Shown: in pieces, positions 29,690 through 33,978 of the stretch
Position numbering within the stretch: the first letter of the stretch is position 1
How the letters are laid out: each line of letters opens with the position of its first letter
Origin: an uncultured Lachnospiraceae bacterium
GTDB lineage: Bacteria > Bacillota > Clostridia > Lachnospirales > Lachnospiraceae
Assembly (NCBI GenBank): GCA_947588845.1
Contig: CANQAR010000023.1
Location: 1-42,342, forward strand
DNA length: 42,342 nucleotides
Direction: 5' to 3'
Made by a program: the position numbers and the translations under genes
Notes under the pieces: generated by a model
Database searches by the model: none
Told to the model about the DNA's origin: nothing
The model's input: the letters and a program-made list of their open reading frames with translations, nothing else

Positions 29690-30877
29690 TCAGCCGTTTT
29701 TCAGTTTTTTCTGGATCCGGATATCATCCCCGATCAGCTTCAGCATGGTGTAGGAGCTCGATATTCGGGAGAATACCCGCTCGGAGTAGGTGTCCGCGAA
29801 GGTCCCGAGCGCGAGGTTGGTCGAGATCAGCGTGCTTTTGCGCCGCAGGATCCGCTCATTCAGGATAAGGAACAGCTGCGAGGAAACAAAAGAGTTTGTC
29901 AGTTCTGTCCCCAGATCGTCGATGATCAGAAAATCACAGTCAAAAATATGGTGTTCCAGTTCTTCCGGCAGTTCGCCGCTGCTTTTGCCGAAGGTCGCGT
30001 CCGCGAACAGCTCAAACAGACGGAAAGCCGAGAAATAGATCACAGAATGCGTCGTGTCAAGAAGCTCCCGAGCGATGCAGTGCGAGAGAAAGGTCTTTCC
30101 GAGCCCGGTATCTCCGTACAGAAACAGATTTTCAAAGGAAGTATCAAAAGTTTTCACGAATCTCCTGCATTCGTCAAGCGCGCGCCGGGCGGTCTGCTTT
30201 GCGTTCAGCCCCGTCACGCGGTCGACGATGCCGGTTGAATAGTAATCGAGAGAAAATCTGGAAAAATTTTCCGTGTCCAGAAATTCTCTCAGGTTTGACT
30301 GCGTGTAGAGAAGATCAATGATCGCCTGCCGGAAACAGTGGCATTTCTGCGTCCCGATGTAGCCGGTATCCTGGCAGTCGGGACAGCGAAAGTGCGGTTC
30401 CAGATAATCTCTGGGGTAGCCTGCGGATACGAGCAGGGCTGTTTTCTGCGCGGACAGGCGGCGGATGTGGGCGCGCAGCGCTTCCACGGACGGTTTTCCG
30501 GTCTTTCTGTCAAGCCAGACGGCAGAAGCATTCCGCTCCGCCGCATCCGGTCCGTTTTCGGAGATGTCCGTTCCTGCCGGATCTGGTTTTCTGCCGGAAG
30601 TATTCCGCTCCGCCGCATCCGATCCGTATCCGGAGATGTCCGTTCCTGCCGGATCTGATTTTCTGCCGGAAATACCCCGTCCCGGTGTGGCCGGGGATTC
30701 CAGCATGGCCCGTGCGCAGGCAGTGCTGGCGGAAGCAATCTCCCTGTCAAGCCGGGAGAATTCAGGAAGACGGTCATAAATTTCCCGGCGGCGGTCCACC
30801 AGCTGCTGCCGGTTGGCGAGCTGCTGCCGCTCGTAGCCGCGCATGATCATGTTATATTGCGAATTGGTTATTCCCAT
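29690..30877 (-). CDS. dnaC: DnaC/DnaI-type helicase loader (IstB-like ATPase)
   Basis: The 395-residue AAA+ ATPase loads the replicative helicase. A basic N-terminal helicase-binding region (1-60) precedes the insert described below. A zinc-binding knot (FRCPDCQDTGYIGTQKCHCF, Cys-x2-Cys and Cys-x-Cys) lies near 165-184. The AAA+ core has Walker A LYGDTGLGKTFLSHC near 254, Walker B DFLIIDDLGTE near 318 and the sensor STNL near 354. It follows dnaD by 17 bases on the same strand, the usual operon order. Unusual are residues 69-116, two nearly identical 24-residue repeats (GRKSDPAGTDISG..DAAERN) that loaders normally lack. ATG 30877 is supported by a GAGGACAAAATGGG context. Confidence 0.92.
   Translation of the reverse strand: MGITNSQYNMIMRGYERQQLANRQQLVDRRREIYDRLPEFSRLDREIASASTACARAMLESPATPGRGISGRKSDPAGTDISGYGSDAAERNTSGRKPDPAGTDISENGPDAAERNASAVWLDRKTGKPSVEALRAHIRRLSAQKTALLVSAGYPRDYLEPHFRCPDCQDTGYIGTQKCHCFRQAIIDLLYTQSNLREFLDTENFSRFSLDYYSTGIVDRVTGLNAKQTARRALDECRRFVKTFDTSFENLFLYGDTGLGKTFLSHCIARELLDTTHSVIYFSAFRLFELFADATFGKSSGELPEELEHHIFDCDFLIIDDLGTELTNSFVSSQLFLILNERILRRKSTLISTNLALGTFADTYSERVFSRISSSYTMLKLIGDDIRIQKKLKNG
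30530..30673 (-). repeat. 72-bp direct repeat inside dnaC
   Basis: 30530-30601 and 30602-30673 are two tandem copies of 72 bases that differ at only a few positions. Both are in frame and encode 24 residues each, so the gene remains intact. The near identity points to a recent duplication. Confidence 0.92.
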
Positions 30878-30894: not shown

Positions 30895-31923
30895 TCAGGA
30901 ATTCAGAAGCTGCCGTTCAAGCTGGCCGTAGTCGTATTCCCTCTGATTGAAATTATTGAAGCGGTTGCTGCTGCCGGCTCTGGTCTGCGGCGGCTGCTGC
31001 CGCTGCGGGCGGTCCTTCTGTTCCGCCTGGCGTTTCTTGTCGAGCGCTATGATATCGGCAGCTGTCCGGACTCCCTGCTTTTTCCACTGCTCCAGAATCT
31101 TGTTCGCGTACTGGAAGTTCGGCTGATGTGTCTGGCGGATCGTGCGGTGGCAGGCCTCCAGAATAATATCGAGAGAATACCCCAGTTCGTTGATCCAGTA
31201 GGACATGGTCTTGAGCTCCGGGGCGGCGGGATTCCGTCCCTTGATGCCGAAAGCGTTCATGATTGAAAAATAGTTTTTGTTGTACAGATTTGTCTCTTCT
31301 CTTGCCTGCGAGACGGTTGTGATTCCCGCTTCCGCCCAGGCAAGCGCCACTTTCCGCATGTAGTGGCGGCTGGCGGATCCTTTGGAGATACAGTATTCCA
31401 GCAGGTACTCGATCAGATCGGCCGAAAAATGCAGCGAGTCATAATAGTACAGAAGATCTTCCTGCTCGGATGAGGAAAGAGGACGCTGAAGATACTGTTC
31501 CGCGACAAAAAAAAGCTGGCGGATATCTGCGTTTTCTCTGAGCGCGTCCATCCGCTCACGGTTTGGAGCCAGGGGCTGCCGGGCCTCCGTCTGCTTTGCA
31601 GAAGCGGCGGGAACAGAAGAAGGAGCGGAACCGGAACACGCGGGGTCGCCGAAAGTGATGTCCTGGATTGTGCCGTCGGGCGCGCAGTTCATCTGCAGAA
31701 GATTTACTTTTTCCCAGTAGGCCAGTGCACGGCGCAGATCCTTCTCTGTATATTCCAGCGCGTCCGCGACAGAGGAGAGCGTCAGCTCCATATTTCCTCC
31801 CGCGCAGCGCAGGAGATAGAGATAAACTTTGACGTATTCCCCGTTTGCCTGCAGCATATAGTGGTCAATAAAGGTATTCTGAACCAGGGTAGCTCCGGAG
31901 GGAGCAGTCGTATGTAGTCTCAT
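30895..31923 (-). CDS. dnaD: DnaD-domain replication initiation protein
   Basis: The 342-residue protein has an N-terminal winged helix (NTFIDHYMLQANGEYVKVYLY, then LSSVADALEYTEKDLRRALA) and two C-terminal DnaD/DnaB_2 repeats. The first reads YLQRPLSSSEQEDLLYYYDS then LHFSADLIEYLLEYC, and the second SYWINELGYSLDIILEACHR then KILEQWKKQGVRTA. The end is a Gln/Arg-rich tail with FNNFNQREYDY, as often seen. DnaD helps remodel DNA at origins and recruits the loader and helicase. The ATG at 31923 has GGGAGG seven bases upstream. Upstream are an extended -10 promoter and a DnaA-box cluster. Identification is secure. Confidence 0.95.
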   Translation of the reverse strand: MRLHTTAPSGATLVQNTFIDHYMLQANGEYVKVYLYLLRCAGGNMELTLSSVADALEYTEKDLRRALAYWEKVNLLQMNCAPDGTIQDITFGDPACSGSAPSSVPAASAKQTEARQPLAPNRERMDALRENADIRQLFFVAEQYLQRPLSSSEQEDLLYYYDSLHFSADLIEYLLEYCISKGSASRHYMRKVALAWAEAGITTVSQAREETNLYNKNYFSIMNAFGIKGRNPAAPELKTMSYWINELGYSLDIILEACHRTIRQTHQPNFQYANKILEQWKKQGVRTAADIIALDKKRQAEQKDRPQRQQPPQTRAGSSNRFNNFNQREYDYGQLERQLLNS

Positions 31924-32036: not shown

Positions 32037-32045
32037 AGTATAACA
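32037..32045 (-). promoter_or_regulatory. Extended -10 promoter of dnaD-dnaC
   Basis: On the minus strand TGTTATACT: a TATACT hexamer (32037-32042) with the TGN extension; the -35 is poor, as usual for extended -10 promoters. The leader of about 105 bases includes GCCCTG/CAGGGC and a possible 20-codon ORF (start about 32012) that ends before the dnaD ribosome site. Confidence 0.55.
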
Positions 32046-32098
32046 TATTCGGACGAAAAAGAGAACAGAATGTTTACTGAGAAAGACAGAAGCGCGGG

Positions 32099-32127
32099 CA
32101 TGGAAGCCTGGTAACAAGGCTTCCATG
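32099..32127. repeat. 11-bp inverted repeat next to the DnaA boxes
   Basis: CATGGAAGCCT (32099-32109) and AGGCTTCCATG (32117-32127) are exact complements. Neither strand has a T-run after it, so it is not a simple terminator. The first DnaA box starts on its last two bases. Confidence 0.7.
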
Positions 32128-32341
32128 TGGATAAGTGGATAAGAAGTTGACAATAAAAAGTCTGATACGCGTAAAATGGCGATAAGAAGGGAAGCGTGCC
32201 GGAATATTATGTAAATCAGGTTATCCACAGAGTAATCCACCGGGTGTGGAAAGAAAAATGTGTATAAGTATGTGGATAATGTGGATAACTTGGGGGATAA
32301 CTGTAGTTTCGGGAGGACAGAGAAGGATATTTGGTGGATAA
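32126..32341. promoter_or_regulatory. DnaA-box cluster upstream of dnaD-dnaC
   Basis: Perfect DnaA boxes (TTATCCACA or its complement TGTGGATAA) occur at 32126-32134, 32221-32229, 32271-32279 and 32280-32288. One-mismatch boxes occur at 32134-32142, 32259-32267 and 32333-32341, and several two-mismatch ones nearby (32245, 32292). All lie in a gene-free stretch about 85-300 bases upstream of the dnaD promoter. DnaA binds such boxes at origins and at regulatory or titration sites. No dnaA, dnaN or rpmH is in the window, so this is not placed like a standard oriC. The rest of the 31924-32541 gap holds the murC terminator and repeat R5. Confidence 0.85.
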
Positions 32342-32360
32342 GTGGGTAAGAAGCGGACAG

Positions 32361-32403
32361 AAAAAATCCTCCGGGCGGACGATCCGGCGTCCTTCCGGAG
32401 GAT
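32361..32403 (-). terminator. Terminator of murC
   Basis: On the minus strand ATCCTCCGGA pairs with CCGGAGGAT (arms 32395-32403 and 32366-32374), followed by TTTTTT (32361-32366). Confidence 0.85.
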
Positions 32404-32541: not shown

Positions 32542-33915
32542 TTATTTCAGCAGATCTTCGCCGACGGTTACAATATCGCCGGCGCCCATGGTGATGATGA
32601 GATCTCCCGGCGCGCAGTTTTCCATAAGGAAATCCTCGATCTCCTGAAAGGAAGGGAAGTACCAGGCGTCCTTTCCTCTGGAGACAAGTTTTTCACAGAG
32701 CATGGAGGAACTGATGCTGGGATCGTTGGCCTCACGTGCCGCGTAAATATCGGCCAGGACGATCCTGTCGGCCAGGGAGAGCGCTTTCACGAAGTCCTCG
32801 AGCAGGGATTTGGTCCGGCTGTAGGTGTGCGGCTGGAATACGCACCAGATCGTATTTCCCGGATATTTTGCGGCGGCATGCAGCGTCGCTTCGATCTCGG
32901 TCGGATGATGCGCATAGTCATCGATGATTGTAATTCCGGAAACCTCGCCTTTCTTCTGGAAACGGCGGTCGGTGCCTTTAAAATCGGCCAGGCCGGCGGC
33001 CATTTTTTCGTAAGGAATTCCCAGCAGATCGCCGGCGGCAAGCGCGGCGGCTGCGTTGGAGATATTGTGTTCTCCCGGGACAGACAGATGATACCGTCCT
33101 GCCGGAATGTTGTTCTTTATGAGAGTGAAGGAGGCGAAACCGTTTTCATCGTACGTGATATCCGCCGCGTGATAATCGCCGCTGCAGAGGCCGAACGTCA
33201 CAGTCCTGCAGGGAAGGCCGGCTGTGATGTAATCCAGGTTTGGAATCCGGCTGTCGATGATCAGCGATCCGTCCGTGTGTATTTTTTCGGCAAAGAGCCG
33301 GAAAGAGTGCCGGATGTCGTCGAGATCCCGGAAAAAGTCGAGATGGTCGGCTTCGATGTTCAGGATGATCCCGATCTTCGGGGAAAGCGAAAGAAAGCTG
33401 TTGGTGTACTCGCATGCTTCCGTCAGAAATACTTCGGAGGCGCCGATACGGATGTTTCCTTCAATGGAAGGGAGAATACCGCCCACAGAGATCGTGGGGT
33501 CGAGATTTCCTGCCATCATAAGGTGGGCAAGCATGGAAGTCGTGGTGGTCTTTCCGTGTGTACCGGCGACTGCCACCGACGTCCTGTAATTGCGCATGAG
33601 CTGTCCCAGAAGTTCGGCGCGGGAAAGCATCGGGATTCCTTTTTCTCTGGCGGCGGCAAATTCCGGATTGTCAGGATGGATCGCCGCGGTGTAGACGACG
33701 ACGTCGATGTCGTCTGTGATATTTGAAGCGGACTGCTCGTAAACGACAGAAGCCCCTTTTCCTTTCAGCCAGTCGGTCAGGGAGGATCTTTTCGTGTCGG
33801 AGCCGCTGACGGTAAAATCTTCCTCGAGGAGAACGGCCGCGAGGCCGCTCATGCTGATTCCTCCGATACCGATAAAGTGGACATGCACGGGCTGATTATA
33901 ATTTATCTGATACAT
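32542..33915 (-). CDS. murC: UDP-N-acetylmuramate--L-alanine ligase
   Basis: The 457-residue Mur ligase adds L-Ala to UDP-MurNAc with ATP in the cytoplasm. The N-terminal Rossmann part has VHFIGIGGISMSGLAAVL (11-28). The ATP loop is VAGTHGKTTTTSM near 108-120. EACEYTNSFLSLSPKIGIIL then NIEADHLDFF carry the metal-binding residues, and the C-terminal domain has DDYAHHPTEIEATL near 330. All are standard. ATG 33915 has AAGGAG nine bases upstream and is preferred to a longer frame to 33978, which would include the promoter. Transcribed alone with its own promoter and terminator. Confidence 0.97.
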   Translation of the reverse strand: MYQINYNQPVHVHFIGIGGISMSGLAAVLLEEDFTVSGSDTKRSSLTDWLKGKGASVVYEQSASNITDDIDVVVYTAAIHPDNPEFAAAREKGIPMLSRAELLGQLMRNYRTSVAVAGTHGKTTTTSMLAHLMMAGNLDPTISVGGILPSIEGNIRIGASEVFLTEACEYTNSFLSLSPKIGIILNIEADHLDFFRDLDDIRHSFRLFAEKIHTDGSLIIDSRIPNLDYITAGLPCRTVTFGLCSGDYHAADITYDENGFASFTLIKNNIPAGRYHLSVPGEHNISNAAAALAAGDLLGIPYEKMAAGLADFKGTDRRFQKKGEVSGITIIDDYAHHPTEIEATLHAAAKYPGNTIWCVFQPHTYSRTKSLLEDFVKALSLADRIVLADIYAAREANDPSISSSMLCEKLVSRGKDAWYFPSFQEIEDFLMENCAPGDLIITMGAGDIVTVGEDLLK

Positions 33916-33949
33916 TCTGCAAATCTCCTTATCTATTGGTGTATAATCT

Positions 33950-33978
33950 ATTATACGCTCGCCGTCCGGAAAATCCAA
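33950..33978 (-). promoter_or_regulatory. Promoter of murC
   Basis: On the minus strand TTGGAT, 17 bases, TATAAT. It lies 35 bases before the start codon. The remainder of the 33916-34223 divergent gap is AT-rich, with an AAGAAGAG/CTCTTCTT hairpin at 34053-34073 between the two promoters. Confidence 0.85.

Follow-up and report, generated by a model that had tools for sequence, protein, structure and literature searches.

The window, that is, the whole stretch of 42,342 nucleotides that was analysed, carries murC, dnaD, and a gene for a helicase-loader-type ATPase on one strand, and a cluster of DnaA boxes lies between murC and dnaD, upstream of both dnaD and the DnaC/DnaI-type loader gene. 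The parts of the locus are as follows.

32542 to 33978, minus strand: murC, the upstream neighbour (TIGR01082, 6.6e-139)
32361 to 32403, minus strand: terminator-like hairpin and T run after murC (arms 32366-32381 and 32388-32403)
32333 to 32341, minus strand: one-mismatch box TTATCCACC, from the mismatch scan
32259 to 32288, minus strand: promoter-distal triplet A, composed of TTATCCACA, 0 bp, TTATCCACA, 3 bp, TTATACACA
32221 to 32229, plus strand: perfect DnaA box in reverse orientation; most congeners have a TGTGGA-like sequence there (alignment, by eye)
32207 to 32215, minus strand: TTTACATAA element, a match to TTKACRTAA
32146 to 32156, minus strand: TTATTGTCAAC element, the TTGTCAAC of which begins 11 bp ahead of the next box
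32126 to 32142, minus strand: promoter-proximal pair B, TTATCCACT overlapping TTATCCACA by one base
32037 to 32065, minus strand: predicted dnaD promoter (-35 TTCTCT at 32060-32065, -10 TATACT at 32037-32042, 17-bp spacer ending in TG plus one base)
30895 to 31923, minus strand: dnaD (DnaB_2/DnaD domain, 342 aa; PF07261, 5.7e-44; TIGR01446), first gene of a presumed operon
29690 to 30877, minus strand: helicase-loader-type AAA+ ATPase (PRK06835/DnaC-DnaI type, 395 aa; NF005304, 1.2e-109, above cut-off)

The terminator-like hairpin sets murC apart from the module, so transcription of dnaD probably starts at a promoter of its own. Among named records, those nearest by their dnaD were MAGs of uncultured Lachnospiraceae bacteria, with best-segment identities of 91, 86, and 80%, and the family was accordingly taken as Lachnospiraceae.

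Five perfect TTATNCACA boxes were located within 163 bp (32126-32288) of the murC-dnaD intergenic stretch, at positions 32126 (-), 32221 (+), 32259 (-), 32271 (-), and 32280 (-). The sequence-only reading had counted four perfect boxes, which are the four copies of TTATCCACA, and the fifth, TTATACACA, is added here. One-mismatch boxes, of which it had reported at least three, were located at 32134 (-) and 32333 (-), with further ones in the window. Its claim of a density beyond chance was borne out, as the whole window holds six perfect boxes compared with a mean of 0.60 and a maximum of 4 in 100 dinucleotide shuffles, none of which reached six, and 42 boxes with at most one mismatch compared with 18.9 expected. 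In the genome, which consists of 280 contigs, 217 perfect boxes were counted in 5.06 Mb, while the reversed-pattern control gave 65. When this genome count, in which the cluster itself is included, was taken as the rate, the Poisson probability of at least five boxes in a given 163 bp was approximately 1.4e-13, and approximately 7e-7 such cases were expected over all positions. Same-strand box pairs at most 30 bp apart gave seven matches in the genome compared with one for the reversed control, and they fell at four loci, namely, the dnaD cluster, C38, C60, and C125. Opposed pairs of the form TTATNCACA..TGTGNATAA at most 30 bp apart, searched in that order over the whole genome, were found only at the dnaD cluster and at oriC. 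Looser clusters were judged among the matches listed, which are the first 100 box positions, up to contig 42.

The standard oriC was found at C38, where rnpA, ten boxes, dnaA, dnaN, and a RecF/SMC-type gene are present, and the neighbours of the cluster studied here are murC and dnaD, in agreement with the earlier statement that the site is not placed like a standard origin. The cluster is real, unusual, and distinct from the standard origin. In relatives whose dnaD and dnaA share a contig, the two were separated by approximately 45 kb (G056), 100 kb (G117), 138 kb (G063), 240 kb (G085), 287 kb (G095), and 519 kb (G129) and, provided that its contig is circular, by 256 kb in G144.

The boxes are kept in relatives: in 29 of 35 congeners, the 900 bp that precede dnaD on its own contig hold at least two perfect boxes. 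The layout in the genus, read on the strand of dnaD, starts with array A (three boxes, with gaps of 0 and then 3 bp), followed by an opposed box or half-box, the TTTACATAA element, tandem pair B, and the promoter. In many congeners, pair B consists of abutting TTATCCACATTATCCACA. Both tandems were perfect in 17 of the 35 genus regions, and their starts were 146 bp apart in 15 of these and 145 bp apart in the other two. Over 29 aligned rows, window included, identity was 0.956 in box columns and 0.511 in the others, a comparison biased towards box columns by the selection of these rows for a triplet with at most three mismatches. The triplet core at that threshold was not found in six of the 35 rows (L024, L026, L027, L034, L037, and L049), among which the upstream sequence is short in L024 (211 bp) and L037 (156 bp). 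Of the six congeners that fell short of two perfect boxes, G028 and G033 are truncated by contig ends, which leave 156 and 211 bp upstream of dnaD, with one box in G033; in G020 the module lies on a second contig, which also bears the dnaD start; and G001, G023, and G024 are described below. A second copy of the double tandem was observed on another short contig in G006 (C172, L156) and G029 (C295), accompanied in G029 by part of a second dnaD; these copies possibly reflect a strain mixture.

The predicted promoter is similarly widespread, as TTCTCW-N17-TATACT with an extended -10 TG was found in 29 of 35 genus upstream regions, window included. The distance from the nearer tandem to the -35 was 43, 53, 62-64, or 73-74 bp in 22 of the 26 scorable genus rows, and 66, 96, 99, and 167 bp in the other four. 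Nine of the 35 rows gave no distance, six with a weak promoter and three without a pair, the window among the latter, and L027 and L040 were counted despite four mismatches in the pair. In the other genera, a promoter score of at least 13 was reached in 10 of 37 regions with a tandem, and the ten distances were 44, 54, 55, 64, 67, 73, 73, 74, 74, and 96 bp. Phasing at 10.5 bp was assessed with the Rayleigh test. For the genus (n = 26) p was 1.8e-7, a value inflated because related genomes are not independent, and with distinct distances only it was 0.01. The ten cases from other genera gave p = 0.0046, and 0.0034 and 0.031 for periods of 10 and 11 bp, respectively. With the promoter score lowered to at least 12, a cut-off picked after the data had been seen, p was 3.5e-5 (n = 17). 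The nearer tandem thus appears to lie near one helix face with the -35 in most scored relatives, the window excepted. Pair B of the window departs from the pattern in having one mismatch and a one-base overlap, and it starts 77 bp from the -35 (32142 and 32065), approximately a third of a turn out of phase. The helical phase is likewise missed by L017 (99), by L040 (66, where the pair is poor), and by one other genus (67); L024 (96) and L029 (167) come near phase at a greater distance.

The sequence-only reading had further reported an inverted repeat next to the boxes. The repeat exists at 32099-32127 as a hairpin, CATGGAAGCC..GGCTTCCATG, that abuts pair B on the promoter side; however, it was dropped as a part of the site, since none of the 34 congener rows examined contains the sequence of its arms, and it is probably incidental. 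The hairpin may have displaced pair B from its usual promoter phase.

The element TTKACRTAA, which at dnaD lies between the two arrays, was found in 26 of 33 genus dnaD regions, the two of the 35 regions shorter than 500 bp being left out. Of the 24 oriC regions of the genus, 19 carried it, and the reversed control gave no match in either set. As the pattern was picked after both alignments had been seen, these genus counts are not an independent test. A fairer test is provided by 89 dnaD regions of other genera, in which TTKACRTAA occurred 32 times in 26 regions compared with 3 for the control. The element was at background in 229 kb of other DNA (11 compared with 15 for the control) and absent from the 21 regions round the second tandem site described below. 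The dnaD-side forms were TTTACATAA (20 cases) and TTGACATAA (6 cases), and the oriC-side form was mostly ACGTAA (18 of 23). In the genus, its offset from the first box was 73 bp in 19 of 26 cases; in other genera it was 60-63 bp in 18 of 22, a difference of approximately one helical turn. A role as a general oriC element was rejected, as outside the genus (other genera and families) only 2 of 20 oriC regions carried it, so the link between oriC and dnaD through TTKACRTAA is mainly at the level of the genus. The TTTACATAA element was also considered as the -35 of another promoter, and no matching -10 was seen in the alignment by eye.

To place the module in the family, one genome each from 99 other genera was sampled, and a DnaD match was obtained in 98. 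A perfect 18-mer tandem was found upstream of dnaD, at most 1800 bp ahead of where the DnaD match starts, in 38 of the 98 genera, and all 58 of these tandems were on the strand of dnaD; the remaining 61 perfect tandems, from 49 genera, sit elsewhere. Regions were read for 89 of the 98 genera (G060, G066, G090, G093, G094, G109, G113, G118, and G133, mostly with weak or split dnaD matches, were left out). These 89 regions contained 234 perfect boxes, 216 of them on the strand of dnaD, compared with one reversed-pattern match. At least one perfect box was present in 76 regions and at least two in 62, and none was present in 13, one of which is only 250 bp long. Two regions were short (L237, 520 bp; L272, 250 bp), and the 29 regions L167-L195, together with the class loci, end at the start of the DnaD match, with the start codon unchecked. 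In other families of the same order, a perfect tandem upstream of dnaD was found in G038, G041, G048, G055, and G058 (24 genomes, 23 with a DnaD match). Outside the order, 27 genomes gave one perfect box in total upstream of dnaD; this set came from the best 29 of 111 matched class loci, two of the 29 being of the same family. On this sample, the association between boxes and dnaD appears to be characteristic of the family and of a part of the order.

As in known DnaA-controlled promoters, the boxes lie upstream of a predicted promoter, and their arrangement is conserved with dnaD in relatives. On these comparisons, we consider it likely that the boxes mark a composite region through which DnaA regulates dnaD and the loader gene. 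The upstream position, the strand bias, the phase in most scored relatives, and the promoter downstream all argue for DnaA as a transcription regulator of the two genes. DnaA would bind at two arrays, A (tandem plus third box) and B (tandem), upstream of an extended -10 promoter. With the nearer tandem at 43-45, 53-55, 62-64, or 73-75 bp from the -35 in most scored relatives, DnaA would be held near one helix face, a spacing that suggests a regulator contacting RNA polymerase or looping from upstream rather than a repressor sitting on the promoter. Activation is slightly favoured as the mode of control. A second factor may read TTTACATAA, and the supply of DnaD and the loader would be tied to the level or activity of DnaA. 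The DnaA feedback on helicase loading that the sequence-only reading had suggested is thus supported by the comparison, while the secondary initiation site that it had also named is not favoured, because the standard oriC lies at dnaA-dnaN.

In B. subtilis, DnaD restrains DnaA assembly and is needed for helicase loading. B. subtilis DnaD is described both as an inhibitor of the cooperative binding of DnaA and as an essential initiation protein (PMC5295017). As DnaD both restrains DnaA and is essential, DnaA control of dnaD would close a feedback loop. More tentatively, DnaA and a protein recognising TTKACRTAA could together set the DnaD level in a family-wide feedback circuit, a possibility to which we give less than even weight. 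The same partners would then act at the origin and at the promoter for the helicase-loading genes, as TTKACRTAA is found at both in the genus, and the TTTACATAA element points to a further putative factor. Initiation control is poorly known in bacteria outside a few models, and for C. difficile the regulation of DnaA activity is stated to be unknown (PMC7561715). A conserved, family-wide DnaA module at the dnaD promoter would be a direct link from initiator activity to helicase loading.

DnaA-controlled promoters are already known. Autoregulation of dnaA-dnaN, control of B. subtilis sda, and predicted DnaA boxes upstream of C. crescentus dnaB are described in PMC8203912, PMC5295017, and PMC13220808, and, like the present case, they have boxes upstream of replication or checkpoint genes. 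The dnaD module differs from them in its target (dnaD and the loader gene), in its two putative arrays far upstream, in the phasing of the nearer array in most scored relatives, in the partner element TTTACATAA, and in its family-wide occurrence. No description of a DnaA-box module at dnaD was found in a literature search of openly licensed papers, covering titles and the starts of abstracts.

A weaker rival is that the cluster titrates DnaA, soaking it up and delaying initiation, with its place beside dnaD being incidental; we regard this as unlikely, though it has several points in its favour. Several boxes stand outside oriC, as expected of titration sites, at high density and with abutting tandems, and the genus has a recurrent second tandem site. 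The closest precedent is B. subtilis, in which six DnaA-box clusters lie outside oriC (Okumura et al. 2012) and their deletion leads to early initiation, as reported in PMC5295017 and PMC13220808. Those clusters resemble the present one as DnaA-box clusters outside oriC in a Gram-positive bacterium; the dnaD module, unlike them, has a fixed layout, lies mostly on one strand with the dnaD promoter downstream, and is defined by its gene partner. E. coli datA and DARS are other DnaA-box arrangements away from the origin, and they act on the nucleotide state of DnaA with IHF/Fis. Titration would not require the single strand on which the family tandems and most boxes were found, the helical phasing of the nearer tandem with the promoter of dnaD, or a place next to one and the same gene throughout the family.

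Genomes in which dnaD has been separated from the module bear on both readings. In G001 and G024, the genes upstream of dnaD are different ones (AAA/SMC-type and phosphoesterase genes in G001, a SipL-type gene in G024), the dnaD promoter is kept, and no perfect box is present upstream. The sole perfect tandem in each of these genomes is the one at the second tandem site. Such separations speak for a tie between the module and dnaD and against titration. As both genomes keep dnaD without boxes, DnaA control would be non-essential. The titration reading gains from G023, where an intact module remains beside murC and dnaD lies with its promoter approximately 3 kb off, behind sequence that includes a Fic-like gene. 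This arrangement indicates that the module can persist apart from dnaD or that the separation is recent; it would fit a recent insertion as well as a role that does not depend on the promoter, for example titration.

It is very improbable that the module mainly serves another regulator, such as Spo0A, with the DnaA boxes being secondary. The Spo0A box is TGTCGAA, which resembles parts of the module, and related letters occur in the genus alignment. Spo0A is encoded in the genome (TIGR02875, 342.6 bits), and the genus repeatedly shows TTGTCAAC and TCGACA-like sequences, the former with 26 occurrences in 35 regions (25 at offset 11) compared with one for the control. Spo0A boxes also overlap DnaA boxes in part at the B. 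subtilis oriC (PMC5295017). However, TTGTCAAC is confined to the genus, with 2 occurrences in the 89 regions of other genera compared with 5 for the control, while DnaA boxes are family-wide. The TTATTGTCAAC/TTGTCAAC element is accordingly best described as a genus feature.

A secondary or backup replication origin is the least probable reading. The abutting tandem and TTKACRTAA are shared with the genus oriC, but a standard oriC stands beside rnpA and dnaA-dnaN. In the DnaA-trio scan, the longest runs in dnaD regions were of 2-4 triplets (mean 2.55 compared with 2.36 in shuffled sequence), and the scan does not discriminate, since the genome's own oriC, with a run of only 2, gave none either. 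The module is like Firmicute origins in its clustered boxes, three of them together; in C. difficile (oriC1/oriC2), three boxes adjoin the DnaA-trio (PMC7561715). Unlike these origins, the dnaD module has no dnaA-dnaN neighbour and no trio-like run clearly above shuffles.

Other box sites were also observed. The genus oriC (L008:5569-5878, L097-L122) carries a conserved composite, GGTTTACGTAA..TTATCCACA..TTGTTGACAA..TTGTGGATAA, which is kept in several genomes with few other perfect boxes. The second non-origin abutting tandem of the genus (L009:4242-4350; C60 in the window's genome, G000) usually has another box 54 bp before it and lies downstream of a gene for an 820-aa protein, the two being found together in 25 loci, the genome's own included; searches of this protein against Pfam, NCBIfam, and PDB sequences gave no match. 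In other genera (L200, L202-L208, L148, L151, and others), tandems outside dnaD often precede a gene that encodes an S30EA/HPF-type ribosome-associated protein, with secA or an NlpC/P60 protein gene nearby; the HPF-type neighbour is common to 16 of the compared loci, the protein families being checked for one example each. In one genome of another genus, a tandem site (L212, G147:C133) on a contig other than that of dnaD has 13 perfect boxes in approximately 280 bp.
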